The translations under genes and the position numbers were made by a program. 41,728 bases of DNA, taken from IMG/VR virus record IMGVR_UViG_3300027608_001240, positions 1 through 41,728 of that record. One strand, given 5' to 3'. Source of the DNA: a virus. Numbering within the stretch: the stretch's first letter is position 1; every line of letters begins with the position of its first letter. Of the stretch, positions 9,373 through 34,793 are shown piece after piece. The notes below the pieces were generated by a model. It saw nothing but the letters and a program-made list of their open reading frames with translations, did no database searches and had not been told where the DNA came from.

Positions 9373-9981
9373 TTAAATAAACTGCTTCTCAATAAATGCA
9401 AGAACCTTCCCTTGCTCCTCTAAGTTAGTGTTTGCAAACTCAGTAATATATGGCATCAAGTCAAAATTAGACATCAGATTACTATATTTAGTTTCTCTTC
9501 CACGTAGGAATTGCTCAGATTGATCGGATCCACGTGCTTTATAGCGTTGTTCTAAAATATCTTTTGGAGCCTTTACGAAAATCACTTCTAATTGGGTATT
9601 TGGGAGACCCATACAGAACTCTAGGAATGACTGATTAAAAACCCGATCTCCTTCGAAAAGGATATTGCAATTATGAGAAGCGACCCATTCTTGAAGAGGT
9701 GGTTGAACTGCCATGGATAGTCGGTCAGTCCCAGCGAATACTTCGCCTTCCTCATACTTACCAAGAACGTATAGATCTCTTTCTGTATTATAAGAGGCAT
9801 TTACCAACTTGGCAGGGGAAACTTCTAGCCAAGTTTTATCTTCCATAAACTTACGGAACAGAGTAGTCTTGCCAGTTCCAGGCGATCCACCAACTGCAAT
9901 AATCTTTCTAGTCTTCATAGGGTTAGTAATCCTTTGTACATTAATGGTGTCAATAACACCTACGTTTTCACTAAATGCCAT
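9373..9981 (-). CDS. P-loop kinase/NTPase-like protein
   Basis: 202 residues with a clear Walker A motif GGSPGTGKTT at about residues 31-40, a strand ILFEGDRVFN like a kinase Walker B, and a lid-like ERYK..RGS pattern (LEQRYKARGSDQSEQFLRGR). The signature FAGTDRLSMAVQP is shared, as I recall, with a T4-like phage kinase family. The fold suits phosphorylation of a nucleotide, a base in DNA or another small group. Because the next genes upstream look like base-hypermodification enzymes, one role could be hydroxymethyluracil-in-DNA kinase (HMUDK), but I cannot assign it. An internal ATG at residue 22 (MKTRKI) is an alternative start. The chosen ATG overlaps the preceding gene by 11 bases. Confidence 0.7.
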   Translation of the reverse strand: MAFSENVGVIDTINVQRITNPMKTRKIIAVGGSPGTGKTTLFRKFMEDKTWLEVSPAKLVNASYNTERDLYVLGKYEEGEVFAGTDRLSMAVQPPLQEWVASHNCNILFEGDRVFNQSFLEFCMGLPNTQLEVIFVKAPKDILEQRYKARGSDQSEQFLRGRETKYSNLMSNFDLMPYITEFANTNLEEQGKVLAFIEKQFI

Positions 9982-10414
9982 TTCTAATTTCCTCGATCAT
10001 TTTAATCAGTTCTTCTTTACTAAAAACCCACACACGTCCACGGAATGAATGGGTATCTGTATTTATTTCTGTTTTCTTAGTAAAGGTCATCTTACTAGTA
10101 ACTTCTTCTGAAGCATGCTTTGCTAGATTATGCTTAATCTCAGTGGCATAATCTACATTACTTTCTCGAAGTTTCATAAGTTCAAACTCTTGAACTCTAT
10201 GCTGAACAGTTATCTCATTCAACTGATAACGATCTAAAATAACTTCAGCTGGAGTGCGCATTGGTGTGATACTGCCAGTTCCACCAGCTGTAGTAGTAAT
10301 TGTGCTTGCATGACCAATAGTAACATGAGGTGAAGTTGCTATTGTAATACAACCACCTGCATCTTCATACATAGCACCTGTAAGTCCAGTCATCTGCGAT
10401 TTAGTCATTGCCAT
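9971..10414 (-). CDS. Conserved T4-like phage protein, function unknown
   Basis: 147 residues, starting MAMTKSQMTGLTGAMYEDAG. The N-terminal half is Gly/Thr/Ser-rich and looks like an exposed beta or flexible region. The C-terminal half is helical and charged (VQEFELMKLRESNVDYATEI) and ends FRGRVWVFSKEELIKMIEEI. I recall close relatives in marine T4-like phages with no known function. The start lies on the stop codon of the radical SAM gene (TAATG arrangement) and the stop overlaps the kinase gene, so it is part of the modification operon. A structural role is also possible. Confidence 0.6.
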   Translation of the reverse strand: MAMTKSQMTGLTGAMYEDAGGCITIATSPHVTIGHASTITTTAGGTGSITPMRTPAEVILDRYQLNEITVQHRVQEFELMKLRESNVDYATEIKHNLAKHASEEVTSKMTFTKKTEINTDTHSFRGRVWVFSKEELIKMIEEIRNGI

Positions 10415-11910
10415 TATAAAACTCCAATCAATTGTTTATATTCATCTATACGTATAGAATTCATTTTTGGTATATCATACTTTTGATTTAACTCAATCAT
10501 TGTATGTTTATACAAATCTTTAATATCAATGCCAATATTTAAATTTGTAATCATCTGAAATTCAGCAACTTTATTCCTAGGACTAATTATACTATTAAAT
10601 TCATTGGCAATCAAATTACATTTTTCATAACTTAGGTTTTGTTCTTGCAAAGTCCAATTCATCCAATTAGTTTTATCATTGAACTCATATCCATAAATCT
10701 CTGGCTTTAAACTAAACTCTGAAGTATATGCAGCAAGATCGTGATCAGGTTTTCTTGGGAATAGATATAATGGATAAAATGATATATGTTGCAGTGGATT
10801 ATTAGATTCCATGCACCAAGAAATTAATTCTTCAAAGTACGATTCAGTATCGTGTGGTAATCCTAAGATAAATCCTGCGCCAATATTTACAGAATCTTTC
10901 CATTCTTCTGCCAACCAATATAATCTATCTTTAACCTTAGAAGGATGTAAACCTTTACCAATAGATTTAGCACTATTTGGTTGAATAGTTTCCAAACCAA
11001 AATAAGTTCCAATCAATCCCATCTCTTTTAATAGAGTGGCTTGGTGAGGATATTTGTGTATCAAATCAACTCTAAGATATGCGCTGAATTTTAATTTGAA
11101 TGGCAATTCAGTAATTATCTTATGTAAAGCATCAATCTTATCGTTATCATCATTAAATGTATCATCTGTCATATAATATGATTCAGTGCCATACAGTTCC
11201 CAATTCTGAATCATCTCATCTTTAATTTCAGAAGGATCTCTAAGATATGTCCCTTTCTTTTTGCCTAGCAAAGGATATGAACAGAATTTACATTTAAAGA
11301 TGCACCCTCTAGCAAGTTCCATTGGTAAACCTTCTTTATGAATAACGTATTGGTCTTTCCAATTAGTTTTAATGTTATCCATTTTTGGTTCATCAAAATT
11401 AGTAGATTCTACTATCTGTGTGTCATTAACATATTTTAATTTAATTTCTGAACCAGTTTGAATATGCTTTGTTAATTCTATAATAGAAGTATCAGCATAA
11501 CCAATAACATAATAATCAATATTTTCATCCGCTTGGAAGTATGGTGCTTTACCGCCACCGTATATTAGTTTGGCTTTGCTATTATCTTTTATGTATTTAA
11601 TAATAGATTCAATGTCATCTAATGAAGTATAGTACATTCTTTCTTTTTGAGTTTGTAAAAAAGAATTGCTATTATTACTCCAGAAAAACGTAGAAGAAAA
11701 ACCAACCCATAATGTTTCTTCAGAAAGATGTTTACTCAATGCAGTTTTTATTTCTTCTACAGACATATGAATAATATAATCTAAAACAAAAGTAGAATAT
11801 CCTTCTTGCTGTAGCGCAGATGCTACTCTATACGCACCCAAATTTCTTTGGATATGTGGTTGATTGGGGTTAGTGTGAGTTCCGCCAGTTAATATAATAC
11901 ATTGCGCCAT
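10414..11910 (-). CDS. Radical SAM protein with B12-binding-like N-terminal domain
   Basis: 498 residues. The 4Fe-4S motif CxxxCxxC is C203-IFK-C207-KF-C210, followed by a radical SAM barrel pattern (YYMTDDTFNDD, FSAYLRVDLI, GLIGTYFGLETIQPNSAKSI, GAGFILGLPHDT). The first about 170 residues (MAQCIILTGGTH, YRVASALQQEGYSTFVLD, AKLIYGGGKAP, YVIGYAD) resemble a cobalamin-binding Rossmann domain, but I do not see a DxHxxG motif, so cobalamin may not be bound. Such proteins perform methylations, methylthiolations and C-C or C-S bond formation. In this operon, next to a DNA hypermodification-like protein and amidoligase genes, I infer action on a modified base or a peptide. The start and stop share bases with both neighbours (TAATG). 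Confidence 0.85.
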   Translation of the reverse strand: MAQCIILTGGTHTNPNQPHIQRNLGAYRVASALQQEGYSTFVLDYIIHMSVEEIKTALSKHLSEETLWVGFSSTFFWSNNSNSFLQTQKERMYYTSLDDIESIIKYIKDNSKAKLIYGGGKAPYFQADENIDYYVIGYADTSIIELTKHIQTGSEIKLKYVNDTQIVESTNFDEPKMDNIKTNWKDQYVIHKEGLPMELARGCIFKCKFCSYPLLGKKKGTYLRDPSEIKDEMIQNWELYGTESYYMTDDTFNDDNDKIDALHKIITELPFKLKFSAYLRVDLIHKYPHQATLLKEMGLIGTYFGLETIQPNSAKSIGKGLHPSKVKDRLYWLAEEWKDSVNIGAGFILGLPHDTESYFEELISWCMESNNPLQHISFYPLYLFPRKPDHDLAAYTSEFSLKPEIYGYEFNDKTNWMNWTLQEQNLSYEKCNLIANEFNSIISPRNKVAEFQMITNLNIGIDIKDLYKHTMIELNQKYDIPKMNSIRIDEYKQLIGVL

Positions 11911-12926
11911 TAGAAATTCTCTAGTCCAATTAAGACTTCTTGTTCATCATCAAACATCCAATTTAAGTTTTCTATTTTACCTGAATTTATAAATGCAGGA
12001 AACTTTTCTTTATCAATTCCTCTTTTATTGTCTAGGCGTAAGTCAATAGTTTCATCTCTTGCTTGCCAAAGAACATCCCAATCAATACCATACCAACCAT
12101 CGCCTTCGGCTTTGATAATTTCTTCAGCTTGACGATCCAAGTAATACCCAAGGTAACGTCCATGATGCGCTCTAAATATTTTCTTGAATGAACACAAACA
12201 AGTTTCCATTGTAAAGAAATCTATTTGCGTTTCCAAATTTGGGAATCTATCTTTGGTTTCGATGAGAATAGATCTGGCTTCGTGCTCAAGAGTTTCATAC
12301 TCTTGACTAGTGAGTTTTCTATCCATATCGTCGTGTCTGCCAATGGCGCAAAGTAATCCATTACGATGAGAGCGAGAGCCATCATAATCATCCAACATGA
12401 GACTAGTAGGGCTAATGCGAATATCAGCGGTATGCTTAAGATGCTGAAGATAAAACCAAGTGGAATAGCGACCAAACTTATGCAGCCCAGACTTAACGCT
12501 TTCCCACAGGTTATCAAAGTTTGCCTCTTCATTGTCTCCATAAAACCCTTCCATTCTTTCTCGTTGTGTTCGGTTACCAATGAATTGTTGATAAGAAGCA
12601 AACATAGCAGGTAGATGCCCCTTGTTCCACTTTGTATCAGTTTGATAACGCAGTCGTTTGTAGTTTGTAGTATTCCATTGCGTAATTCTATCAACTGTTG
12701 CTAATTCATAATCAGGAAATTCATTCATCAATACCCACGCAGTTGGTAGTTGATATGTGTTGCCATAAAGCCAAGCGAGCCAAAGACGTTGTTCGTCATT
12801 ATGCTCGTATCGTTTGTTGAGATAGTTCGTAGCCCAAACAGCTGGGTCACAGTCATCATATTTTAATGACCATGCGTACCAGCGAATGAACGCTTCTCTA
12901 TTATTTTCGGGTTTTCGATAATCCAT
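11910..12926 (-). CDS. Alpha-glutamyl/putrescinyl thymine pyrophosphorylase-like (amino acid:DNA transferase-like) protein
   Basis: 338 residues. I recognise the pattern FIRWYAWSLKYDDCDPAVW, YEHNDEQRLWLAWLYGNTY, PTAWVLMNEFPD, FGRYSTWFYLQHL (151-163), SRSHRNGLL, ETCLCSFKKIFR (241-252) and RYLGYYLDRQAEEI (257-270) as a family described computationally as alpha-glutamyl/putrescinyl thymine pyrophosphorylases, linked to DNA glycosylase-like folds. In phages such as phiW-14 and SP10 relatives of this group help install amino-acid or putrescine groups on thymine after hydroxymethyluracil activation. The substrate here is not known. It lies directly upstream, with base sharing, of the radical SAM gene. 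Its first 26 bases overlap the end of an HNH gene, suggesting that a mobile HNH gene landed just before it. Confidence 0.65.
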   Translation of the reverse strand: MDYRKPENNREAFIRWYAWSLKYDDCDPAVWATNYLNKRYEHNDEQRLWLAWLYGNTYQLPTAWVLMNEFPDYELATVDRITQWNTTNYKRLRYQTDTKWNKGHLPAMFASYQQFIGNRTQRERMEGFYGDNEEANFDNLWESVKSGLHKFGRYSTWFYLQHLKHTADIRISPTSLMLDDYDGSRSHRNGLLCAIGRHDDMDRKLTSQEYETLEHEARSILIETKDRFPNLETQIDFFTMETCLCSFKKIFRAHHGRYLGYYLDRQAEEIIKAEGDGWYGIDWDVLWQARDETIDLRLDNKRGIDKEKFPAFINSGKIENLNWMFDDEQEVLIGLENF

Positions 12927-13338
12927 TTACTCGTTTTCTTGAATTGGGTACACTATCTTTCGACAACCTAGTTTTTATTTTGTGACATGTTACACACAAC
13001 TCTTGAATATTTTTCTTAGAATTGTCTGCATCATTGCCATTGATATGATCAATTTCAGTAATAAAGATTCCCTTTGGTAGTAATTTAAAATTTGTTGGAC
13101 ATTTAAATCCCAAACGTAAGTCTTTATTAGCGCATGTATTTTGCCGAAAGGGTATAACACCATCAGCGTATGGAGTCTTTCCAGTTTGAGCCTGTGCGCA
13201 AGTTCCGCAAACTGGACGCCATTTAGCGTTGCCGTTTTTATAATACGATGAAACCGTAACTGGTGTATTGCATCCACGATTAATACAATTTGGTCTGGTA
13301 GAGATATTTTTAATATCAACTGTTTGAGGACGACCCAT
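12901..13338 (-). CDS. HNH endonuclease (homing-type) with zinc-ribbon motifs
   Basis: 145 residues. EIDHINGNDADNSKKNIQEL with a following CVTCHKIKT is a standard HNH core (D97-H98, N110, and C115-x-x-C118-H119), and a second CxxC (VCGTC, 44-47) suggests a zinc ribbon. Such stand-alone HNH genes are common mobile endonucleases in T4-like phages. It is preceded by an early-type promoter at 13372-13400 and overlaps the next gene by 26 bases. It is the only clearly selfish-looking gene in the window and has no recognisable flanking intron or repeat. A role in degrading unmodified DNA is possible but less likely. Confidence 0.8.
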   Translation of the reverse strand: MGRPQTVDIKNISTRPNCINRGCNTPVTVSSYYKNGNAKWRPVCGTCAQAQTGKTPYADGVIPFRQNTCANKDLRLGFKCPTNFKLLPKGIFITEIDHINGNDADNSKKNIQELCVTCHKIKTRLSKDSVPNSRKRVNGLSKTRK

Positions 13339-13371
13339 AATATAGCTCCATTATCAATTATTCCAACCTTT

Positions 13372-13400
13372 ATTATACCCTATTCTGCAATAAAAGTAAA
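13372..13400 (-). promoter_or_regulatory. Early promoter, TTTACT-17-TATAAT
   Basis: -35 TTTACT at 13400-13395, 17 bases, -10 TATAAT at 13377-13372, in the gap between the GNAT gene and the HNH gene. Its surroundings match the other four family members (CAAATATCGCTTTACTTTTA). Confidence 0.8.
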
Positions 13401-13412
13401 GCGATATTTGAC

Positions 13413-13964
13413 TCAAAAACCATCTAATTTGACCCCTATTTGGCTCGTAGCAAGGTCGTAGAGGGTCGTACAGCCCCCTTTACCCTTACGGTTGACCGCT
13501 TTATTGATAGTCGTGTCAGAGAGGTCGTAGTCGCCCTCTAAGAAGGTATTTCCCCCTATTCTAAACACTGATAGGGAGCATCCGCTCTTTTGGGCTCCCC
13601 AAAACTTAAACCCAAGACGCTCGTAAAACCCCACTGCGGACTTCTCAGAGGATACCCTGAAGTAACTTGCGCCATTGGCTTTGGCACGTATTAAGGAATC
13701 CTCACATAGTAATCTAGCCGAACCTTTGCCTCTATGCTTTACGAAAGTATGCAAGAGTTGAAGGTTAGCAACATGAGGTTTGGTCTTTGATATTGTTGTA
13801 ATAATTGCAGCAGTTAAATCATTACCATCGAATGCGCCAATGCAGTAATCCCATTGGTCTTGCATATCTGCTTTGGCAACAAATGTCTTGGCGAAGTTAT
13901 CTTCTTTATCAGTGCTTATTGCTGAAACAAAATCAGCACGAGAACACTTAGACAACTTCAACAT
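13413..13964 (-). CDS. GNAT-family acyl/acetyltransferase
   Basis: 183 residues. The GNAT acetyl-CoA loop is seen as HTFVKHRGKGSARLLCEDSL (V-x-x-x-x-RGxGxA-like) and the C-terminal strand-turn as SSEKSAVGFYERLGFKFWG. The reaction would be transfer of an acyl group from acyl-CoA to an amine. The last about 50 residues (EGDYDLSDTTINKAVNRKGK) are an unusual C-terminal tail coded by a more GC-rich stretch than the rest. It overlaps the amidoligase gene upstream by 17 bases. Published comparative work on amidoligase systems reports GNAT proteins beside them, supporting a linked role in making a modified peptide or base adduct. The exact substrate is unknown. Confidence 0.8.
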   Translation of the reverse strand: MLKLSKCSRADFVSAISTDKEDNFAKTFVAKADMQDQWDYCIGAFDGNDLTAAIITTISKTKPHVANLQLLHTFVKHRGKGSARLLCEDSLIRAKANGASYFRVSSEKSAVGFYERLGFKFWGAQKSGCSLSVFRIGGNTFLEGDYDLSDTTINKAVNRKGKGGCTTLYDLATSQIGVKLDGF

Positions 13965-14832
13965 AAGTTCTTACCTTTTCTCCACGATCTTCTGGATGCT
14001 TAGTTTTCTCCCAACCAATAAACTGATTGAGATCCCAAATCATTGGAGGGAAATTATAATTATTGTTTGAAATTAATTCAAGAACACTTTGCCCTTCATT
14101 TAACGCAGCATCAAGAAAGTCTTGAACAAAGCGGAAGCAAGATTCTAATTGAGTTCTGTCCATTGTGCCACGGAACAATCTAAACTCTACAGTATCGATA
14201 TGTTTCAATGCGTACATATTAATAGCGTATCGGAATGGGCGACCCATTGACACTCCATCTTTACCTGCAGCGTGCATCTTAATGAATGAAGGAAAGTCTG
14301 TTGCTAGATTAATGATGTTATCTGCCATGTAATCTGGAAGAGTACGACCACCATCAAACTTCAAATACATCTTTGCGCCTTTGGCACCTTTCATTTGATT
14401 GTGTTCAAAGTAACCATACACATTCTCTACAGTATCATGTTGGTTTTCTTTAATGTATTTGGTTAGACGCTTCAGTGCATCGATATCATCACGTAGATTA
14501 GGGACACGACAATGAATGTGTGTATGAGCAGTAGCACCAATTGTAGGTGGAGTGCCATTGTCCGTGAATAGTTTTTGAAGTTCAAAATACCGATCAACTT
14601 GTTCTTCCCAAGTTCTAGTCGGTTTCGTGTTGATCTCACCACCGAATGGAGGATCGATACCAAGTGGGTCAGCGCAGACATATTGATATGGCTCTCTTAG
14701 ATTAATAATATCTCGCTCTGAATATTCCCAAGTACCGAGATGTTCTGGAATTGAAAAAGAGCGAGGAACATCACCCCACTCTATTTCCATTCCGTAAGTA
14801 AATTTATCAGTTGGATATGGTTTGAGTTTCAT
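13948..14832 (-). CDS. Amidoligase (COOH-NH2 ligase, glutamine-synthetase-like fold)
   Basis: 294 residues. Diagnostic motifs are TYGMEIEWGD (E16 and E18, metal binding), GGEINTKP (E66), HTHIHCRVPN (near 103-111), and VEFRLFRGT near residue 218, in the order seen in the Amidoligase_2 family. These enzymes form amide bonds between carboxyl and amino groups with ATP. It sits between a GNAT gene and a class II glutamine amidotransferase gene and overlaps both. That trio was predicted in comparative work to synthesise or attach peptide-like groups. Here it may add an amino acid to a modified base or modify host peptidoglycan or protein; the neighbours favour the first. The start at 14832 gives a 26-base overlap with the amidotransferase gene. 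Confidence 0.8.
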   Translation of the reverse strand: MKLKPYPTDKFTYGMEIEWGDVPRSFSIPEHLGTWEYSERDIINLREPYQYVCADPLGIDPPFGGEINTKPTRTWEEQVDRYFELQKLFTDNGTPPTIGATAHTHIHCRVPNLRDDIDALKRLTKYIKENQHDTVENVYGYFEHNQMKGAKGAKMYLKFDGGRTLPDYMADNIINLATDFPSFIKMHAAGKDGVSMGRPFRYAINMYALKHIDTVEFRLFRGTMDRTQLESCFRFVQDFLDAALNEGQSVLELISNNNYNFPPMIWDLNQFIGWEKTKHPEDRGEKVRTYVEVV

Positions 14833-15511
14833 AATCTACTTTCTGTAAATCAATTTTTGTTGTTTGAACAGCTTCCATGATCATTGTCATGCGCTCATCA
14901 AATGTAAGATATGTATTCATTGGCACTTCAACAATTGGCATTTTAATACCTGCACGTTTAGGAATATCCGCAGTAGAAGTAATTATAACGCCATTCACTA
15001 AAGAAGTCAAGTATAATGGACGCTTACCATTACGATATGCAAGGAGTTTCTTATCTACAGTAAGTTCACAAACAGCCATTGATGCATCAGTATATTCTTC
15101 AAGAGGTGAGTCAGAATGTAATACCAATTCAGAATCATTCTTAGTTTCACATTTGTAGTTGAATAACTTATCCCAATTCTCTGCTAGTTCTTGAGTGATA
15201 ACTCCATTGTGAACAATAGAATGTTCTTCGTTTGCTATCGGCTGGTTATACAATAAATCGCTAGTAGAATATCTACAATGACCAATAAGGTAAAGATTAC
15301 CGTCATCATTAACCATCTCCTCTAAATTATCTAAATGAACAAATCTATCAGCAGGAACTGGCTCTTTGAATGTTAGAACCTTACCATTATAGACAACAGA
15401 CATACCTGTAGCATGCATTCCTCGAATCTTAGACTCAAGGAATACCTTACGGATAGTTTCAAAATCTTTTGACGTGGGATTCTGAATCAAAGCACCAATG
15501 ACGCTACACAT
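14807..15511 (-). CDS. Class II glutamine amidotransferase
   Basis: 234 residues starting MCSVIGAL, so Cys2 becomes the N-terminal nucleophile after Met removal, as in the Ntn-type glutaminase domain (GATase_2) of GlmS, PurF and AsnB. Supporting motifs are RGMHATGMSVVYN, GHCRYSTSD, and SIVHNGVI. There is only the glutaminase domain; no synthetase half follows, so the ammonia is probably used by the neighbouring amidoligase, which is the inferred partner. Stop and start overlap the amidoligase and oxygenase genes (TAATG with the latter). It could alternatively hydrolyse another gamma-glutamyl compound. Confidence 0.8.
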   Translation of the reverse strand: MCSVIGALIQNPTSKDFETIRKVFLESKIRGMHATGMSVVYNGKVLTFKEPVPADRFVHLDNLEEMVNDDGNLYLIGHCRYSTSDLLYNQPIANEEHSIVHNGVITQELAENWDKLFNYKCETKNDSELVLHSDSPLEEYTDASMAVCELTVDKKLLAYRNGKRPLYLTSLVNGVIITSTADIPKRAGIKMPIVEVPMNTYLTFDERMTMIMEAVQTTKIDLQKVDYETQTISN

Positions 15512-16104
15512 TATTTAATCTCCAGTTTAGCATATTTACTCATCATTTGACCACGTATATAAGAATTAACAACTACAGAAAACCTAGATACATTATCAGT
15601 ATTCTTAGAAATAGAATGTTCCAATGATGAAGGAAATAGTATTAAATCATTCTTGTTTGGTTGTATAGGTATGATCGTCTTATTATAATAATTACTATCG
15701 TTATTTGAGAACATATGAATAGTAGATTTACTTTCTCTATAAAAAATTATAGAGGATGGATTGGGTGAAACATAAAACGATCCACTAATGATACTATTAA
15801 CGTGACTGTGTCGTTCACCAAATTGTAAAGTATCGCTCTTAGTTACCCAAGATGACGAGATATAAAATTCTAGCCCAGCACCAAACAATATATCTCCAAA
15901 TATCTGTAAATGTTTTTGTATAGCAACCCGCAAAGCATCCAATCTATCACTAGAAAGAACATCATCAGAAGATGATATGTTAGGCACAGCGTCAAATAAC
16001 TTTTCTGTTTTTAATTTAGTGATATGCTCTAACGACTCTTCAGATAAAATATCTCCAAGATTAGTTCTATATACAGGTGTTGGGAATATATTTAAGATTT
16101 CCAT
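15511..16104 (-). CDS. 2OG-Fe(II) oxygenase (PF13759-like)
   Basis: 197 residues beginning MEILNIFPTPVYRTNLGD, a usual start for this family. The metal site appears as RHSHVNSIISGSFYV (H99-x-H101) and FPSSLEHSISKN (H163), with R174 in RFSVVVN as the likely 2-oxoglutarate-binding Arg. Proteins of this type are numerous in marine T4-like phages; most substrates are unknown. The gene is in the hypermodification-like operon directly after the TET/JBP-like gene (two-base gap), so a base or protein substrate connected to that pathway is plausible. Confidence 0.8.
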   Translation of the reverse strand: MEILNIFPTPVYRTNLGDILSEESLEHITKLKTEKLFDAVPNISSSDDVLSSDRLDALRVAIQKHLQIFGDILFGAGLEFYISSSWVTKSDTLQFGERHSHVNSIISGSFYVSPNPSSIIFYRESKSTIHMFSNNDSNYYNKTIIPIQPNKNDLILFPSSLEHSISKNTDNVSRFSVVVNSYIRGQMMSKYAKLEIK

Positions 16105-16106
16105 TA

Positions 16107-17423
16107 TCAGAAGAAACTTTCTAATGAAGAAGCATTGGCTTCTGGATGATACTTATGTAGTTCTTCTTGACCTAATTTAGATTCAAGATATTCATACCAT
16201 TCTTGACTGTCCCACATAGATTCAGATACGCCATTCCATAGTGGTTTGTACAATGGGTGTTCTTTGTTAGTTCTACGGGATTCAACAAAGTTATAACGAG
16301 TGTCTTCATATTCATGTGAGCCAAGTTCTAACATTTTCTCACGGAAATAAACTACCAATGATACACGCTCAGAACCTTCTTCACAAACAATAGGTGTATT
16401 GCCATGCATAACTTCGTGGTTGTTAATCAGAAGCAAATCTCCTGGACGAACATTTACTGCCACACGATACTCAGGTGCAATTAAATATCCACCAGTGTAA
16501 CGACCATCATTGGATAGTGTTAGCAGATTAGATAAACCTTCATTCAAATCACCAGCATCTCTGTGCGCTGCAGTTCTAAATGTTTTGTTAACAGTGACTG
16601 TTGTGAATGGAGTTCCAGGTACTAGGAATCGTGGATCTAGTTTATTTGCTGCAGTCATTTGTGCTGCATAGCGTTCAGGTAGAAGATTCTTAAATCCATC
16701 AGAAAGATTCTGTAGGAATGGATATGACATTTTGAATTTATCAAAGTTGTCACGAGTATATGAAGTGGCGCGACCATACGGAATGCGTGGATAACGATCG
16801 AACCATCCAGCAATACCAGAGTTTACTGCAGTACCATAGGTGGTTGTACTAATCATTTCCATGACATCTTCACATGCTTCTGCGCGATTCTGACGACCTA
16901 GTGGTTTGATAGTATCTAACCATGCTTCGAAATCAAACTTACTTCCACGGAAACGAGAAATAACCCATACGTTGTTTTTGCCACTACCACCAGCCATGCG
17001 CTTATCAGTTTCAGTAGGATACTTGGCACGAATGGTATCAATTACATCTTCTTCATCAAGAGATGAGTTACGATTCTTCAACAAGGATTCCATCATCTCT
17101 TGTTGATAATTTGTTACCCACTCACGACCTTCAGTTGTGGCAAGAATGCCATCTTTGATACCAGAAGCAAGTCCACGATTCTCTGTGCGAATTGCAGCTT
17201 CTCTAAGTCCGACATACGCAGCATCTTGTTGTTCTTTACTAAAATAATTTTTACGAAACTTTAATACAATTCGTTTCTCTGAAATTGGATCTTCACCCAT
17301 TTGTGGTGGCATATAAACATCAGTATCTTCTTCAATAAGATGATCATAATTAGTTTCGTCAACAAACTTACCAAGAAGATGTTCACAATTGTGTTTTTGC
17401 TCAGCTACAATTACCTTAACCAT
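16107..17423 (-). CDS. TET/JBP-family 2OG-Fe(II) dioxygenase (base oxidation in DNA)
   Basis: 438 residues. The C-terminal catalytic core is unmistakable: TVNKTFRTAAHRDAGDLNEG with H287-x-D289, then YTGGYLIAPEYRVAVNVRPG, LLINNHEVMHGNTP with H340 (or H336), and ERVSLVVYFRE with R353. This order matches the JBP/TET clade, which oxidises the methyl group of thymine (JBP) or 5-methylcytosine (TET) in DNA. The first about 200 residues are an accessory region with no motif I recognise. No cytosine-C5 methyltransferase is in this window, so thymine is a reasonable guess for the substrate. It is the first gene of the modification operon, just downstream of the gp41 helicase gene (nine-base gap). Confidence 0.8.
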   Translation of the reverse strand: MVKVIVAEQKHNCEHLLGKFVDETNYDHLIEEDTDVYMPPQMGEDPISEKRIVLKFRKNYFSKEQQDAAYVGLREAAIRTENRGLASGIKDGILATTEGREWVTNYQQEMMESLLKNRNSSLDEEDVIDTIRAKYPTETDKRMAGGSGKNNVWVISRFRGSKFDFEAWLDTIKPLGRQNRAEACEDVMEMISTTTYGTAVNSGIAGWFDRYPRIPYGRATSYTRDNFDKFKMSYPFLQNLSDGFKNLLPERYAAQMTAANKLDPRFLVPGTPFTTVTVNKTFRTAAHRDAGDLNEGLSNLLTLSNDGRYTGGYLIAPEYRVAVNVRPGDLLLINNHEVMHGNTPIVCEEGSERVSLVVYFREKMLELGSHEYEDTRYNFVESRRTNKEHPLYKPLWNGVSESMWDSQEWYEYLESKLGQEELHKYHPEANASSLESFF

Positions 17424-20187: not shown

Positions 20188-20439
20188 TTATACCTTTAGG
20201 AAAGTGAGCAACTGCTCTTCATTTAATGTGCCAACGTGTCGTTTCAATTCAGTACCATTTTCATCAAGAAGAATCATAGTGGGGACAGAACGAACACCAT
20301 ATTCAACTGAAGTCATAAGTTCATTATCAATGTTGACTTCATCAATGGGTACTGTAACTTTATCGCCAGCACCTTTAATAACCATGCTCAGCCCTTTGCA
20401 TGGACCGCACCAGTCTGCGTAAAATTTCAAAACTTTCAT
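20188..20439 (-). CDS. Thioredoxin
   Basis: 83 residues, short for thioredoxin (about 105) but with the whole active site: YADWCGPCKGL with Cys11 and Cys14, a strand VDEVNID-like segment, and the cis-Pro region GVRSVPTMILL. It reduces disulfides, probably supporting the phage's own enzymes such as ribonucleotide reductase (not seen here). An ATGA overlap joins it to the oxygenase gene upstream. A near-perfect sigma70 promoter (20484-20512) inside that upstream gene is about 45 bases before its start, so the trx-uvsX-gp41 unit could start here. Confidence 0.9.
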   Translation of the reverse strand: MKVLKFYADWCGPCKGLSMVIKGAGDKVTVPIDEVNIDNELMTSVEYGVRSVPTMILLDENGTELKRHVGTLNEEQLLTFLKV

Positions 20440-21101
20440 ATATTCTCCTTCGTAAGTAATCTGTAATTAGTTTTGTCTATCATATTATAAACTTCTTCTG
20501 TTATAATGTCAAATGCAATTGTTATTCTTGGGTTAACTGATAAATTTGGTGAAGACCAATGAGTTATAAACGATGGGAATAAAATTAACTCACCATTTAC
20601 ATTTGCAATCTCTCTATATACCTTCTTGTTTAATATCGGATGCGCAAAAAATGTGCTTGTATTTTCTGTCTGTAAAGATATATTTCCTGAGATATAAGAA
20701 TATTCTGCTGGTGCGCCACCATGAGCATCAGCATGATTATGCGGGGTAATTATCCTTCCATCATTATTGATAATGTTAACCCAACATTGGATATATACTG
20801 ATTTAGATGAATCAATATTACAAAATAATTCATACTCTAAATATTTTTCATATATGAATTTCTTCAAGTGACGTACGCTTGGGTAATCGAAATCTAAAAA
20901 GTTATATGCCCACAGTTTTCCTGTTATCCAATTGGGATCATCGTTAGGATTACTAGATTTAATTGCAATAATATTCGGTTGTTCTTTAAGAACAACCTTT
21001 ACTAATTGTTCACAATTTTCTATATCAATAGAACTATTATGTAGAGCAATATCAAATGCAGGTAACATTGCAGAATTTGACGGAAAATTTAAATTTATCA
21101 T
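20436..21101 (-). CDS. 2OG-Fe(II) oxygenase
   Basis: 221 residues. Candidate ligands are in TPHNHADAHGG (H121 or H123 with D125) and FPSFITHWSSPN (H181), with R192 in NPRITIAFDI binding 2-oxoglutarate. The family and substrate are unclear. It is the last of three consecutive iron oxygenase genes between the polymerase and thioredoxin genes, overlapping both neighbours by four bases. The 3' end carries the consensus-like promoter match for the trx-uvsX unit. Confidence 0.75.
   Translation of the reverse strand: MINLNFPSNSAMLPAFDIALHNSSIDIENCEQLVKVVLKEQPNIIAIKSSNPNDDPNWITGKLWAYNFLDFDYPSVRHLKKFIYEKYLEYELFCNIDSSKSVYIQCWVNIINNDGRIITPHNHADAHGGAPAEYSYISGNISLQTENTSTFFAHPILNKKVYREIANVNGELILFPSFITHWSSPNLSVNPRITIAFDIITEEVYNMIDKTNYRLLTKENI
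20484..20512 (-). promoter_or_regulatory. Intragenic consensus sigma70 promoter TTGACA-17-TATAAT
   Basis: TTGACA at 20512-20507, 17 bases, TATAAT at 20489-20484: a perfect sigma70 consensus inside the end of the oxygenase gene, about 45 bases before the thioredoxin start. Its placement is right for the trx-uvsX-gp41 unit. Confidence 0.6.
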
Positions 21102-21646
21102 GGATTATTTTTCGAATGTGGAACATCAAAGACAAATGTAATTCTTGTGCAATCGCCAGTGTTTTCAGTTCCATGCTTTAACTTATTATTGAACCAGAGC
21201 AATGTTCCAGGTTCAATGTCTACATACTCATCACCTACAAAATATCTATATCTTCCTAAAATGGCTAAATGATAGCGATCTCGTGTAAGATAGTAAGTTC
21301 CCTCATCGATGTGTAATCCAACATGACCTCCAACTGGAAGTGAAAGAAATCCACAACGACTAAACTTCTTGAAATTGCGTTTCATAAAACTTACAACTTC
21401 AGTATGATGATCTATGGCAGGAGTTGGAATACAAATCTCACTATCTCCAACGAAGTCTTCTGCTTTTTGCACACCGCCCATTACTAATTGTAATGCATCT
21501 ACTGGTAAATCAGCAAACCCTCTATCAACTAGAGAACCTACATTCTCCATGTTCTTTTGAGAACCCCAATCTGCTGGGTATTGTTTCAATTGTTTCACAA
21601 TCTTTGAAACATTGATTCCAGTTTTAATTATGCGAATATTACTCAT
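21098..21646 (-). CDS. Aspartyl/asparaginyl beta-hydroxylase-like 2OG oxygenase
   Basis: About 182 residues from the chosen ATG at 21646 (an in-frame upstream start at 21667 is also possible). The chosen start gives the ATGA overlap with the preceding gene. The core matches the Asp/Arg hydroxylase fold: SLPVGGHVGLHIDEGTYYLT (H-x-D), WFNNKLKHGTENTG (His), and RITFVFDVPHSK (Arg), at H112, D114, H158 and R168. It is a double-stranded beta-helix Fe(II)/2OG enzyme that hydroxylates Asp, Asn or related side chains; the phage substrate is unknown. It is the middle gene of a tandem of three oxygenases. Confidence 0.75.
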   Translation of the reverse strand: MSNIRIIKTGINVSKIVKQLKQYPADWGSQKNMENVGSLVDRGFADLPVDALQLVMGGVQKAEDFVGDSEICIPTPAIDHHTEVVSFMKRNFKKFSRCGFLSLPVGGHVGLHIDEGTYYLTRDRYHLAILGRYRYFVGDEYVDIEPGTLLWFNNKLKHGTENTGDCTRITFVFDVPHSKNNP

Positions 21647-22254
21647 ACTCTTGGTCCAAGAATCCAACCAACTAAACTCTTTCTGAACCCAGAAGTTACT
21701 GGTGTTACTTCATGCAGTATTGTTGATTCAAAGAAAGTGATTGTACCGCACTTCTTGTTTGCAGTAATAACATTATTGCCACAATAAATTAAAACATCTC
21801 CACCCACATATGCATCTTCTGGAGATATCTGAATTGTAAATGATAATGATCGGACAAGAGGATCTCTTTTATCACTAGCATCTATATGTGGTTTATAAAA
21901 TCCATGATATTTGGAATCATACTCAGTATATTGTAATGGTTCAGTACCATATAATATCTTATTATAATTTGTTAGGTTTACGTGGTTAATTGCAATGGAC
22001 AATTTATCATACAACCAAATCCAACTAACATCACTAAGAAAACTAATATTGGATTTCCTAGAAGAGTGGGAAGCCAATCTTCGGGTTTCAAAATCATCAT
22101 TATCATTATCTTCTCCAAGTAATGCTGCTTCTATATTTACAGTTTTTAATTGTAAATTTATTTTTTGTAGTTCTTCTTGTGTAAGAAAATTATTAATACA
22201 AATTATTGGTTGGTAATTATCAATTTTATTTAAATGATAAAATATATTAGCCAA
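21643..22254 (-). CDS. Prolyl-4-hydroxylase-like 2OG-Fe(II) oxygenase, probable TTG start
   Basis: The frame is open up to 22353, but that extension overlaps the polymerase end. A better start is TTG at 22254-22252, preceded six bases away by a GGAGG site and giving 203 residues with an eight-base overlap. In this numbering H123-I-D125 (from YKPHIDASDKRD), H181 (STILHEVTP) and R191 form the P4Hc-type metal and 2OG site. The pattern VRSLSFTIQISPED...GGDVLIY also fits P4Hc. The substrate may be a phage structural or host protein. The start call rests on the ribosome site; no homologue was aligned. Confidence 0.7.
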   Translation of the reverse strand: MANIFYHLNKIDNYQPIICINNFLTQEELQKINLQLKTVNIEAALLGEDNDNDDFETRRLASHSSRKSNISFLSDVSWIWLYDKLSIAINHVNLTNYNKILYGTEPLQYTEYDSKYHGFYKPHIDASDKRDPLVRSLSFTIQISPEDAYVGGDVLIYCGNNVITANKKCGTITFFESTILHEVTPVTSGFRKSLVGWILGPRV

Positions 22255-24733
22255 AGAAATCCTCCAATGAACTTTGCTCGGAAGTAGACCAACCAAGCGA
22301 ACCAATAATAATTTGAAGAGCATCAGTAAATACTTTTTCAAACATCTTGTCATAATCTATGTAGGAGTGCAATTCAAACTCTGGTGGCAACTCTTGACTG
22401 AACGCAATAACATCTTCTTGGAATTTATTAGGTTTACGAACATAGACAAATCTAATTTTATCACCATCACGAATTGGTTGATACTTTTTATCAAGCCCCA
22501 TCTTCTTAGTGTAGTGATTAAACAATAACGCACCACGAACATGAATCGGAGTTCCCTTAGAATAGATAGGTGAACCAGCGTACTGTTTCATACCATTCAC
22601 ACTACGAGGAAATGCAATCTCCTCAACGGGAAGTTTATCAAACTCTTTACGGAATTCCATAATATAGTTCTGAAGATCGGCTTGATTTCCTCTAAGAATA
22701 ACCTCAATTGAATCTCGCAACTTGTCACGAATGACCGCAGGAGTAGAGGACTTGACCATCTCAAGACCCATAACTTTAATCTTTGGTTTCTCATACTGAA
22801 CACCTTCAGAGTTATGGACATTAAGAATGTATCGTTTCTTGGCAGTCCAGATACCTTTGTCAGCCAAAACCTCACGCTTCATCTGCATCTTCTGACTATA
22901 CGCATTCATATAATCAGCAAGTTCTTGATAACCACTATCAATGAATGGTTGGAAAACATCTTCACAGATCTTGTCCATAAACTTAATCTTCTGCTCATCA
23001 GTTTTACCTTCACACATCTTCTCAACTAAAGTTTCAAGCGTAAGATAGATTGAGTCAGTATCAATGGCAACTACATAATCTTTACCCTCAGTCTTGAGAG
23101 TTTTATTCATGAATGCATTTAACTTGTTTGCCATCCAACGAATAGACAACTGACCTGACGTAGTAATACCCTCAGCCATACGGATATCAAAGTATCGGAA
23201 GTACTGATTACCCATGGCACCATAAGCAGAGTTCAACGCAATCTTCATAGCCATCTGCAAGTTATTCAATCGAGAGATATCTTTGAGTAAGTGTTTCTTA
23301 GTCTTATCTTTCTCATACTCTTGTTGAATAACAAGCATCTGTTTCTTAAACTTAGAACGATTCTTGTACATCTGTTCCATCAACTCAGGCATGAACCCTT
23401 TGAACTCTTTGGTATAAGTCCAACCATTGGCAGTTAGCGCAAGATCTCGTTGCTTAACATATGTAGTATCAATCTCTTGATTGAGTAGTTTATCAACAGT
23501 GACGCTAATCTTTTCAGAAGTCAAAGTCTCAGGACTAATGTTATACTGCATAATCAAGTGAGGATACAGCGAGTTCAAGTCAAAGGAAGCCATCCATTTA
23601 TGAAGACCAATGATTGGATCTTTAACATAAGCACCTTCGAACTGAGAATCTTTGCCAGAGTAAGACTTTGCTGGAACAACGATACCCTTTTTACGCAAGT
23701 GGTTATAGATAATTGTATCCCACATACGAACCTGCGAATAAACATCTTCGAAGTTAATCTTAGCATTATACGCCATGGTTAGATGCAACTCAATTAGGCG
23801 CATCTTATCTTCCAATTTGTCAACCAACTCTACGTCATGTATGTTGTAGTCAACGAATTCTTGCCAGTGATTAGTATAGAAATCTTTGAACGAATCACCT
23901 GGATTTACTTTCTTCTTATCGCCAAGTTCTTGCTCGGCGATATAATCAAGGCGATAACTTTCTTGTTTAGAATACGTATATTTCTTATACAGTTCAAGAT
24001 AATCTAGTTGAGCAATACCAACGATATCGTAGTGAATCTCTTCACTACCTTTGATGAAAGTCTTGCGCTCATTCACATAACCCCATGGGCTTAGTTTGTT
24101 GGATTCACCATCACCAAGTTCACGCTCAATCCTACGAATTAGATATGGCATGTCGAAGAAGTCAGTATTCCAACCAGTAATAACATCGGGATGACTCTTG
24201 GACCAAAACTCTAGGAATTGAGTAAGTAGTGCTTGCTCATCTTTACAATTGACATAGATTACATCTTCCCGTGGATTGACATAAGTCTTACTGCCGAAAG
24301 TAATGATGCGTTTGGTTGATAGTTCTTTGACAGTGATTAACAGAATCTCTTCATTGGCAGATTTGATATCAGGGAAACCATTCTCAGTTGATGTTTCAAT
24401 GTCAATGGTGAACACTTTAATCTGTTCCATATCCCAATTAACATCATGCGAATAGTTGTCACTGATGTATTGATACGCATAGTTTGAGTTACCGTAAACA
24501 TCAAATCCCTGAACACCCTCATATCGTTTAATGAATTCTCTAGTGTCTTTAATAGATCCAGGATTCACCTCATCAACGAATGATCCCTCCAGTGTCTTCC
24601 ACTTGGAGGGTTTCTTTGAAGTCACATAAAGAGTAGGAGAGAAGTCTAGTTTGCGTTGGTATCGCTTACCATTCTCAACACCACGAATGAAGATTCGATC
24701 TCCAATCGGATGCACCGAAGTATAAAATTCCAT
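22247..24733 (-). CDS. 43: DNA polymerase gp43 (family B)
   Basis: 828 residues, shorter than T4 gp43 (898) but with all main parts. 3'-5' exonuclease: TIDIETSTENG (D111, E113) and WNTDFFDMPYLIRR. Polymerase motif A: FDLNSLYPHLIMQYNISPET. Motif B: KIALNSAYGAMGN. Motif C: VAIDTDSIYL. The C-terminal end is a clamp-binding-like SSLEDFFG. It replicates phage DNA with the gp45 clamp and gp44/62 loader, all encoded further right. It lies downstream of the DexA-like gene (one-base overlap) and upstream of the three oxygenases. A strong sigma70 promoter match lies about 160 bases upstream, inside the DexA-like gene. Confidence 0.97.
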   Translation of the reverse strand: MEFYTSVHPIGDRIFIRGVENGKRYQRKLDFSPTLYVTSKKPSKWKTLEGSFVDEVNPGSIKDTREFIKRYEGVQGFDVYGNSNYAYQYISDNYSHDVNWDMEQIKVFTIDIETSTENGFPDIKSANEEILLITVKELSTKRIITFGSKTYVNPREDVIYVNCKDEQALLTQFLEFWSKSHPDVITGWNTDFFDMPYLIRRIERELGDGESNKLSPWGYVNERKTFIKGSEEIHYDIVGIAQLDYLELYKKYTYSKQESYRLDYIAEQELGDKKKVNPGDSFKDFYTNHWQEFVDYNIHDVELVDKLEDKMRLIELHLTMAYNAKINFEDVYSQVRMWDTIIYNHLRKKGIVVPAKSYSGKDSQFEGAYVKDPIIGLHKWMASFDLNSLYPHLIMQYNISPETLTSEKISVTVDKLLNQEIDTTYVKQRDLALTANGWTYTKEFKGFMPELMEQMYKNRSKFKKQMLVIQQEYEKDKTKKHLLKDISRLNNLQMAMKIALNSAYGAMGNQYFRYFDIRMAEGITTSGQLSIRWMANKLNAFMNKTLKTEGKDYVVAIDTDSIYLTLETLVEKMCEGKTDEQKIKFMDKICEDVFQPFIDSGYQELADYMNAYSQKMQMKREVLADKGIWTAKKRYILNVHNSEGVQYEKPKIKVMGLEMVKSSTPAVIRDKLRDSIEVILRGNQADLQNYIMEFRKEFDKLPVEEIAFPRSVNGMKQYAGSPIYSKGTPIHVRGALLFNHYTKKMGLDKKYQPIRDGDKIRFVYVRKPNKFQEDVIAFSQELPPEFELHSYIDYDKMFEKVFTDALQIIIGSLGWSTSEQSSLEDFFG

Positions 24734-32665: not shown

Positions 32666-34135
32666 TTATTTACGGTCAAATTTTACTACAAGTTTATTTT
32701 GTTCCAACAATACCTTATGATCAATATAAGATTGTTTTTCAATGTTTGCTAGGTAGTCTTCATATATTGTATGTTGTTCAGTTTTAACATCGCCATGTGT
32801 TTCTAATAACCGATCTCGTAAGAAGTCTTTATCAAACAACTCTAACCCAGCCATGACCTGAGCCCAGTTTGGCGCAGTAAACATATTATACATGCCACTA
32901 AACTTATGCGTTTGTGGTAAACATTTTGTAAACAATTCTAAATTGTGTTCAATAAAATTAGTCTTAGTCATTCTCTCTGGGAGAGTCTTCCAGAACTCAG
33001 TATCATTACGTTTAGTCATATAATGTAATTGAACAAAGTCAACTATGTTATCAAAACATGCTATGAACTTTACATTATAATCATCAGCGATAGATCTATC
33101 TATAAACCATTCCTCTAGCATATCGCATAAGCCAAACGATTGAAGAATTGAATTACCAATGCTTGATGCTTCTAATGGTTCAACAAATGATGCAGACAGA
33201 CCAATACTTACGCAATTATTAATCCATAATTTATCTACACGACCTGCTTCAAATTTAATATCCTTTGCTACTTTGACTTCTTCAGTATAGAATGACTGAA
33301 CCTCATCGTGTGCTTTTGTTGCATCAATAAAGTTGTCATCAAACACATAACCATTACCATACCTACCTTGAGTAGAAATCCTCCAATTCCAACCAGAAGA
33401 TAATGCACGAGATAGGGTATAAGGTTTAAGATCTGTAATATCATTAGTAGGAAATGCCAATGCATGATTCATTGGTAGGTATTTCTTATAAGAAATCCAC
33501 TTAGCCCCAACCTTGGTAGCAATTACTCGCTTAAAACCACTACTGTCAATAAACAAATCGGCAGAATACTTGGTGTCATCTTCTGCAATAATATAATTAA
33601 CATCACCAGTTTCAGTTAATGTTATTTCTTTGATTGTAGAATTAATTACATCAATCTTTCTCTCAGAGCATAATTTATGTAGATATGCATTCAACTTAAA
33701 TGTATTAAAATGGTATTGATTTACAGTAAATAAACCGCCACCATAATCAACCAAAGAAGTTTCTAATAAAATATCTTCAGTTTTTATGTTATCAGTGATT
33801 AAAGTTTTTGCAAATGCGTTACTATTGACAGCTTGATTATATGAATAGAATGGATGGCTTAATGCGTGGAAATAACTTTTACCATCACCATTCCAATTCT
33901 CAAATTTAATACCCTTCTTGAGAGCACCATCAGTTTCTCTGACAAGGTTGCGAATATCAATCTTACAATACTCAGACCATCGTCTCCAGTGTTCAGTTGA
34001 ACCTTCTCCTACTCCAATAATTCCAACAGAATCTGATTCAATAACTCTAACTGAATAGTTTGGAAATGTTTGTTTAATTGTAATTGCAGAAATTAAACCA
34101 GCAGTTCCCCCACCAAGAACAATAATGCTCTTCAC
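32666..34135 (-). CDS. Flavin-dependent tryptophan-halogenase-like protein
   Basis: About 489 residues from the GTG at 34135, chosen because GAGG lies six bases upstream and one base separates it from the clamp stop; the frame opens earlier at a TTG codon (34165). Signatures: VLGGGTAG (FAD site, 8-13), GVGEGSTEHW, ALKKGIKFENW with the lysine near the catalytic Lys of PrnA-type enzymes, GWNWRIS at about 248-254 (the WxWxI motif, with Ser where Pro is usual), and FVEPLEASSIG with the catalytic Glu. It may halogenate an indole-like substrate, or be a diverged flavoprotein with another use. Lying between clamp and clamp-loader genes, it looks like an accessory insertion. Confidence 0.82.
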   Translation of the reverse strand: MKSIIVLGGGTAGLISAITIKQTFPNYSVRVIESDSVGIIGVGEGSTEHWRRWSEYCKIDIRNLVRETDGALKKGIKFENWNGDGKSYFHALSHPFYSYNQAVNSNAFAKTLITDNIKTEDILLETSLVDYGGGLFTVNQYHFNTFKLNAYLHKLCSERKIDVINSTIKEITLTETGDVNYIIAEDDTKYSADLFIDSSGFKRVIATKVGAKWISYKKYLPMNHALAFPTNDITDLKPYTLSRALSSGWNWRISTQGRYGNGYVFDDNFIDATKAHDEVQSFYTEEVKVAKDIKFEAGRVDKLWINNCVSIGLSASFVEPLEASSIGNSILQSFGLCDMLEEWFIDRSIADDYNVKFIACFDNIVDFVQLHYMTKRNDTEFWKTLPERMTKTNFIEHNLELFTKCLPQTHKFSGMYNMFTAPNWAQVMAGLELFDKDFLRDRLLETHGDVKTEQHTIYEDYLANIEKQSYIDHKVLLEQNKLVVKFDRK

Positions 34136-34136
34136 A

Positions 34137-34793
34137 TTAAACCTCAAATGTAGAATCTGCCTCAACTGCTACATAATAAACTAGATCGCCTGCACCTTTG
34201 AAGCGAGAGATCTTCTTGCTGGAAATAGACACTTGATAGTCACCTGGAATCATCTTTAGGTTTTCTACCTTCAAATTAACTTTGAACTTCTTCTCAGTTG
34301 CGCCCACTGCGGAGTTATAAGAGTTGCCAGTGGCATTCTTTTTATCACCAACAACTACAGCAATAGTTGAACCATCACCAACGATTGATACGTCAGAAGC
34401 ACGTAATACAGAAGCAGTTCGTTGAATCATGCTGAGCATATTAGCACTCATAGGGAATTCAATTTCTGCATCAGGGAAGGTAATTGCTTTTTGCGGGGCA
34501 GTTAGTACGCTTGCATCGGCTGCAAAATACTTAATGCTGTTCCCACCTTGTTCAATCGTTACCCACTTGTCATTGAATGTCAATTCTGGATCTTCAAACA
34601 AAGACATGGCACCGAGGAACTCATTGAGGTCATAGATACCAAAGTCGGGGAATGTTTCAGTAACAACTGCATCAGCCATTACGTTTTTCTGAGCCGAGAT
34701 AGTGGCTAGTTTATTACCAGACTTCAAAAGCAAATTGCTGTTAATGCCAGCAAAGTTCTTGATCAATCCTACGGTTTCTTTAGAGAGTTTCAT
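34137..34793 (-). CDS. 45: Sliding clamp gp45
   Basis: 218 residues (T4: 228). The opening MKLSKETVGLIKNFAGINSN and ITLSKKISRFK-like ISSKKISRFKGAGDLVYYVA match gp45. It is a trimeric ring that tethers the polymerase and activates late transcription. It is preceded by a perfect sigma70 promoter (34834-34862), showing it can be expressed on its own. Confidence 0.95.
   Translation of the reverse strand: MKLSKETVGLIKNFAGINSNLLLKSGNKLATISAQKNVMADAVVTETFPDFGIYDLNEFLGAMSLFEDPELTFNDKWVTIEQGGNSIKYFAADASVLTAPQKAITFPDAEIEFPMSANMLSMIQRTASVLRASDVSIVGDGSTIAVVVGDKKNATGNSYNSAVGATEKKFKVNLKVENLKMIPGDYQVSISSKKISRFKGAGDLVYYVAVEADSTFEV

Follow-up and report, generated by a model that had tools for sequence, protein, structure and literature searches.

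A putative thymine hypermodification cassette with a glutamine amidotransferase and an amidoligase in uncultivated T4-like phages

A ten-gene operon behind a helicase gene

The stretch of DNA we analysed, called the window throughout, is a 41.7 kb viral record from IMG/VR (IMGVR_UViG_3300027608_001240; 41,728 nucleotides) and is itself a fragment. Its DNA gave no direct nucleotide match to phage records. On the minus strand lie ten ORFs (Table 1), all present in the order that an earlier, sequence-only reading had listed. That list also stood up for eight of the ten families, which could be named from Pfam, PHROGs and NCBIfam or, for the amidoligase, from a predicted structure: TET/JBP dioxygenase, 2-oxoglutarate (2OG) oxygenase, class II glutamine amidotransferase (GATase), amidoligase, GNAT, amino acid:DNA transferase (ADDT), cobalamin (B12)-type radical SAM protein and P-loop kinase 3.

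The junctions between ORFs run from -26 to +2 nt throughout, apart from a 74-nt gap ahead of the HNH gene, spacing that resembles a single transcription unit. The operon begins with the TET gene, immediately after a gp41-like replicative helicase gene. Because its genes overlap or nearly touch and TET directly follows this helicase gene, the cassette looks like an extended replication operon of a T4-like phage.

Table 1. The cassette and its ORFs, in order of transcription.
Feature	Coordinates	Strand	Length (aa)	Basis
Cassette, ten ORFs	9373-17423	-		
TET/JBP-family 2-oxoglutarate/Fe(II) dioxygenase	16107..17423	-	438	Pfam PF12851 E=9.6e-25, above cut-off; PHROG 24024 E=4e-151
Small 2OG-Fe(II) oxygenase, optional accessory	15511..16104	-	197	PF13759 (2OG-FeII_Oxy_5) E=7e-16
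Stand-alone class II glutamine amidotransferase (GATase)	14807..15511	-	234	PF13522 (GATase_6) E=6e-9, above cut-off; purF-like
Glutamine-synthetase-fold (predicted) carboxylate-amine ligase (amidoligase)	13948..14832	-	294	PF12224 E=0.04, weak, below cut-off; predicted structure
GNAT acyltransferase	13413..13964	-	183	PF13673 E=1.8e-10
HNH endonuclease	12901..13338	-		Pfam 0.0098, weak; PHROG HNH families E=5e-6, clearer
ADDT, amino acid:DNA transferase (aGPT-PPlase; 'alpha-glutamyl/putrescinyl-thymine pyrophosphorylase' family)	11910..12926	-	338	PF18724 E=5.9e-23, above cut-off; PHROG 3271 E=1e-55
Cobalamin-type radical SAM protein	10414..11910	-	498	PF04055 E=7e-18; B12-binding 1e-4, weak
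Protein with no assigned family	9971..10414	-	147	No family at cut-off (Pfam, PHROGs)
P-loop kinase (Ploopntkinase3)	9373..9981	-	202	PF18751 E=4e-7, above cut-off

A conserved core

Four of these genes travel together. The TET/JBP product, a predicted hydroxylase of the thymine 5-methyl group in DNA, aligns over almost its whole length, at 41-48% identity, with proteins from phages DLP6, Cr30 and C48C1, and its iron triad (H287xD289, H340) and 2OG-binding R353 are invariant among 33 homologues. The GATase, predicted to be a source of ammonia, keeps its N-terminal nucleophile Cys2, its glutamine-binding R80, N102-G103 and D126 in all 39 homologues. ADDT homologues occur in 376 phage records, many of them ViI-like Salmonella phages. 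Searches of the PDB gave no sequence relatives of ADDT or the GATase at the thresholds used, an absence that is not evidence. The P-loop kinase, a predicted 5-hydroxymethyl-pyrimidine DNA kinase, has a Walker A motif that is nearly invariant among dereplicated homologues; by Pfam it is not of the M6-type HMUDK family. It is 26% identical (E=3e-8) to gp4 of mycobacteriophage Zemanar, whose gene follows those for TET and ADDT.

Scans of IMG/VR returned 80 loci with the TET query and 80 with the ADDT query, and from them a consensus order emerged: TET, [2OG oxygenase], GATase, [tailoring genes], ADDT, [radical SAM], [147-aa protein], kinase and a SprT-like gene, with brackets marking genes that vary. 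Among 98 ADDT loci, TET and the GATase lie upstream in 42 of the 42 with more than 6 kb of upstream sequence, and the kinase lies downstream in 62 of the 62 with more than 3 kb of downstream sequence. From the TET side, 66 loci had sufficient downstream sequence; the GATase and a window-type ADDT are both present in 49, both absent in 17, and neither is ever found alone. These are not counts of independent events, because the phages that carry the cassette are related. The gene set is nevertheless beyond chance, since dozens of contigs repeat its gene order and content and the catalytic residues of each family are invariant among dereplicated homologues. By gene content, TET, GATase, ADDT and kinase make up the core, and the remaining genes are interchangeable. 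In phage Cr30 and in a divergent branch (L060-L063) the other three core genes are there, but no GATase was detected. Cr30 also carries a gene of the thymidylate synthase family. Members of the divergent branch carry TET, ADDT, a second protein (317 aa) with a weak ADDT match and, where the sequence allows, the kinase.

Such families, conservation and linkage support the earlier proposal of a base-hypermodification operon that starts with TET/JBP and includes a kinase and ADDT, and DNA-base hypermodification is very probably what the cassette does. The same reading had thought the combination unfamiliar in a T4-like phage. As a set it is not unique but common among uncultivated T4-like phages in IMG/VR; new, as far as the literature searched shows, is the extension of the triad TET, ADDT and kinase by GATase, amidoligase and B12 radical SAM, with exchangeable tailoring genes.

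The amidoligase

The amidoligase was the hardest protein to place by sequence. Homologues from Vibrio phage 2.275.O (1.8e-4) and phage Simon (8e-3) match PF12224 better than the window's protein does, both still below the cut-off. An AlphaFold2 model (pLDDT 78, pTM 0.83, with some low-confidence stretches) predicts a glutamine-synthetase fold: compared with YbdK, glutamine synthetases and gamma-glutamylcysteine ligases it gives VIA Z scores of 9-11 over roughly 175-230 aligned residues, and the matches listed are all of this superfamily, although Foldseek E-values for the model did not pass 0.001. E16, E18, E66, E216 and R218 are invariant among dereplicated homologues.

Phage records yielded two matches only, in Simon and in Vibrio phage 2.275.O. 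Simon is an isolated phage, and its cluster (PQ683277, not annotated) contains the amidoligase, ADDT, a flavin oxidoreductase, a low-molecular-weight (LMW) phosphatase, both parts of HMUDK (the 5-hmdU DNA kinase) and a thymidylate synthase. Amidoligase, ADDT and an activating kinase are thus together as in the window, whereas a thymidylate synthase relative replaces TET, the LMW phosphatase replaces GNAT, and a flavin oxidoreductase is present with no GATase detected nearby. Simon's amidoligase is 40-42% identical to those of T4-like cassettes of the LMW-phosphatase type and 28% identical to the window's. In the Vibrio phage (L169, 9896-15104) the homologue sits beside queF, queC, folE (GTP cyclohydrolase) and a weak GATase-family gene, neighbours that suggest a further use in deazaguanine DNA modification.

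Scanning viral contigs with an alignment of amidoligases brought 73 new loci, 64 with ADDT nearby; the single Simon protein as query brought none. Pooled and dereplicated, in a set that includes loci originally found through TET or ADDT, the amidoligase loci with full flanks numbered 41, of which 37 have ADDT and 36 a kinase. In these 41, 28 have only the GATase, eight have only the flavin oxidoreductase, and none has both. Such mutual exclusion suggests that a 5-aminoalkyl thymine, later acylated by the amidoligase, can be reached in two ways. In L202 and L248 the amidoligase context includes M6-type genes for radical SAM and PLP enzymes. Enzymes of the latter two kinds, like flavin-dependent lyases, reportedly turn amino-acid-thymine adducts into amine-bearing bases (Lee et al., 2021), and by analogy the flavin-enzyme context and the M6-type radical SAM/PLP context would both give a primary amine. 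As a working hypothesis, one reading covers these contexts most simply: the amidoligase would acylate a primary amine, supplied in the window's family by a GATase-fed ADDT. We lean, with moderate confidence, toward a base substituent as the target of the amidoligase.

Interchangeable parts

Between GATase and ADDT the cassettes carry one of three arrangements: amidoligase with GNAT, as in the window; amidoligase with LMW phosphatase; or a GNAT-like gene (c8). The position of the window's GNAT is accordingly taken in relatives by the LMW phosphatase or another GNAT, and in a few relatives the interval holds a GT1 glycosyltransferase or additional 2OG oxygenases. The small 2OG oxygenase behind TET is found at this place in only some relatives. 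Lee et al. (2021) reportedly proposed that thymidine-tailoring genes are permuted combinatorially in viral metagenomes. Elsewhere in the window (20436-22353), three successive small oxygenases (2OG-FeII_Oxy_5, Asp/Arg hydroxylase-like and 2OG-FeII_Oxy_3) lie between uvsX-like and DNA polymerase genes.

Two members of the original gene list have changed standing. The HNH protein is probably not a pathway enzyme, for relatives have a different HNH gene, GIY-YIG/ParB-like genes, unassigned genes or nothing at all before ADDT. Since endonuclease-like genes at this place vary or are missing, we regard the place as a hot spot for insertions and the HNH protein as, most likely, a homing endonuclease whose gene has entered the operon. 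The radical SAM protein was right as to family, and is cobalamin-type and methyltransferase-like. It is not an obligatory component, being present in just seven of the 62 cassettes with downstream sequence, and BLAST against M6 gp53 (E=2.8) detected no similarity to the M6-type isomerase.

The best NCBIfam matches of the radical SAM protein are to B12-rSAM families, below their cut-offs; TIGR04072 spans both domains at E=1.2e-29, below the equivalog cut-off, and several of the matched cobalamin-dependent families are methyltransferases. Its CX3CX2C motif (C203, C207, C210) is invariant in three dereplicated sequences. It is predicted to be a C-methyltransferase-like tailoring enzyme. Neither phage records nor, at the threshold used, the PDB held sequence relatives, and the absence from the PDB is not evidence. 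Of 20 relatives, 13 sit in a cassette beside the ADDT gene, the kinase gene or both; the others lie beside 2OG oxygenases, three with a halogenase. Because of these relatives outside the cassette the protein may have another substrate; it likely works in the cassette, though not there exclusively. In contig L137 a flavin halogenase that has a WxWxIP motif comes right after ADDT, the place of the window's radical SAM gene, and in L180, L182 and L183 a halogenase adjoins the radical SAM gene. The window has its own Tryptophan-halogenase family protein (PF04820 E=2.6e-91; 32666-34165), within the replication region, where its neighbours are a clamp-loader-like gene on one side and a sliding-clamp-like gene on the other.

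The 147-aa protein, found in 49 of 62 cassettes, has a conserved stretch of 85 C-terminal residues and a disordered N terminus (low-confidence model, pLDDT 63). Its relatives adjoin TET in two loci without ADDT (L027, L038), and it may therefore belong to the TET step and not to ADDT.

A proposed pathway and its wiring

What we have observed are gene identities, conservation, linkage, gene absences in large relatives, and the predicted fold of the amidoligase and its recurrence in unrelated thymine-hypermodification clusters; from these we infer every reaction that follows, and the order of the reactions. After replication, TET/JBP would hydroxylate thymine in phage DNA to 5-hydroxymethyluracil, which the P-loop kinase would phosphorylate. 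ADDT would then swap the (pyro)phosphate for an amine, with the GATase freeing ammonia from glutamine and so, most likely, leaving a 5-aminomethyl group exposed on the product. The amidoligase would couple this amine to a carboxylate, for example that of an amino acid, the GNAT would acylate a free amine, and the B12 radical SAM protein would put a methyl group on carbon. The final base would shield phage DNA from nucleases, probably against bacterial defences. That the cassette hypermodifies thymine post-replicatively, by a mechanism of this kind, we consider probable. Its parts are less secure: radical SAM methylation is a tentative assignment, and the aminomethyl product of the GATase step is one we hold more tentatively still. 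Equally tentative as the methylation is the wider picture of amide-linked, amino-acid- or peptide-like side chains built on thymine by a glutamine-synthetase-fold ligase and a glutaminase-fed transferase amine, with interchangeable GNATs, phosphatase, B12 radical SAM, glycosyltransferase, halogenase and 2OG oxygenases giving each lineage its own base.

The same thymine pathway could be wired differently. ADDT might add a whole amino acid such as glutamate, whose free carboxylate the GATase and amidoligase would amidate with ammonia, much as MurT/GatD do in cell walls, with no aminomethyl stage. A GATase that adjoins a ligase commonly serves in glutamine-dependent amidation, the two genes are adjacent in the window with a 26-nt overlap, and the GATase may feed the amidoligase instead of ADDT. 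Against this arrangement, the GATase is kept in cassettes that have the GNAT-like c8 instead of the amidoligase, and the amidoligase stays where the flavin oxidoreductase replaces the GATase. We regard whole-amino-acid transfer as somewhat unlikely.

The target base

We are fairly confident that thymine is the target base. Profile PF00303 (thymidylate synthase, dUMP/dCMP hydroxymethylases) is absent from seven relatives of 160-174 kb, and PF00145 (C5-methylase) from ten records that include these seven, although some records may be incomplete. ADDT is present in five of the seven. Large relatives lacking both profiles point to TET as the most likely source of hydroxymethyluracil, which it would make from thymine in DNA in the manner of JBP. 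In relatives that lack ADDT, the corresponding genomic position has a GT1 or TET-associated glycosyltransferase behind TET; it is as though the hydroxymethyl group could be glycosylated or else handed to ADDT. In six such loci (L026, L027, L029, L038, L041, L043) a protein of about 449 aa follows TET directly or past one or two small genes; in L029, the one scanned, it is a GT1 glycosyltransferase. Two records without C5-methylase and thymidylate synthase genes, L038 (165 kb) and L047 (169 kb), are candidates for base-J-like glycosylated thymine in phages.

Were cytosine the target, TET would oxidise 5-methylcytosine and the later steps would act on 5hmC. Phage TET enzymes reportedly act on 5mC (Burke et al., 2021). 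The missing C5-methylase genes argue against this, as do the linked ADDT and kinase families, known from 5-hmdU pathways, and we think a cytosine target improbable. There is a similarly small chance that the trio of GATase, amidoligase and GNAT is a module of its own, modifying cell-wall peptides or small metabolites and merely parked in the operon. Such a role has been proposed for phiEco32-type amidoligase/GATase genes (cited in PMC10580990), and GATase homologues also occur in LUZ24-like phages, in a different setting; set against that, dozens of contigs have these genes placed between TET and ADDT, and unrelated clusters of siphovirus type also combine this amidoligase with ADDT. An RNA or free-nucleotide substrate is very improbable: the TET and B12 radical SAM superfamilies do have other cellular substrates and a TET relative bears a tRNA-enzyme label in one PHROG, but ADDT and the 5-hmdU kinases are families associated with DNA and the operon starts straight after the replicative helicase gene.

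Relation to known systems

The chemistry of activation followed by amine displacement is established for Delftia phage W-14 and related phages (PMC5977210, PMC6449724). In W-14, which makes alpha-putrescinylthymine, a pyrophosphoryl intermediate in DNA is documented and an amine displaces pyrophosphate on hydroxymethyluracil (PMC5977210). Unlike the window's proposed route, W-14 makes hydroxymethyl-dUMP before replication, and TET, amidoligase and radical SAM are not reported there. Thymidine hypermodification in M6 and ViI, as reported by Lee et al. (2018, 2021; cited in PMC6449724), shares with the window ADDT, an activating kinase and post-replicative tailoring of a 5-substituted uracil and, as a concept, tailoring by radical SAM and acyltransferase. 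M6 relies on a thymidylate synthase relative to make hydroxymethyl-dUMP and on HMUDK with a helical-domain protein, whereas in the window's family TET and Ploopntkinase3 are used instead, GATase and amidoligase come in addition, and the radical SAM protein has no BLAST similarity detectable to that of M6.

A triad of TET, ADDT and kinase is already known from actinophages: Zemanar has TET/JBP, ADDT and a Ploopntkinase3 kinase in the window's order, and in CaiB (PMC9302106) and Tonitrus (PMC11955845) the triad is described as a nucleotide/thymidine hypermodification set. These actinophage clusters have a ParB-like gene in front, and among the first genes of Zemanar we saw no GATase, amidoligase, GNAT or B12 radical SAM. 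The YbdK/glutamine synthetase superfamily supplies the predicted fold of the amidoligase, with a base substituent in DNA as its predicted substrate in the window. As far as the literature searched shows, the GATase and the glutamine-synthetase-fold amidoligase are new as recurrent parts of thymine-hypermodification clusters; so are the exclusion between GATase and flavin enzyme and the variants with B12 radical SAM and halogenase in T4-like phages. We found no description of an amidoligase acting on DNA in that literature, which cannot exclude an earlier proposal.

If the reading is true, the known repertoire of DNA-base enzymes gains a ligase that forms amide bonds, a glutamine amidotransferase and, probably, chemistry of the B12 radical SAM kind, in a T4-like lineage that is common in metagenomes. 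Hypermodified bases affect restriction resistance and bias phage sequencing, and the enzymes that make them could be used in DNA labelling.

Several database labels in these families are probable misannotations. Among entries that include PHROGs 800 and 6059, Zemanar gp2 and gp4 and the TET genes of DLP6 and Cr30, TET proteins appear as 'queuine tRNA-ribosyltransferase' or 'SNF2 DNA repair protein', and in the same PHROG and Zemanar group the P-loop kinase appears as 'terminase small subunit'.
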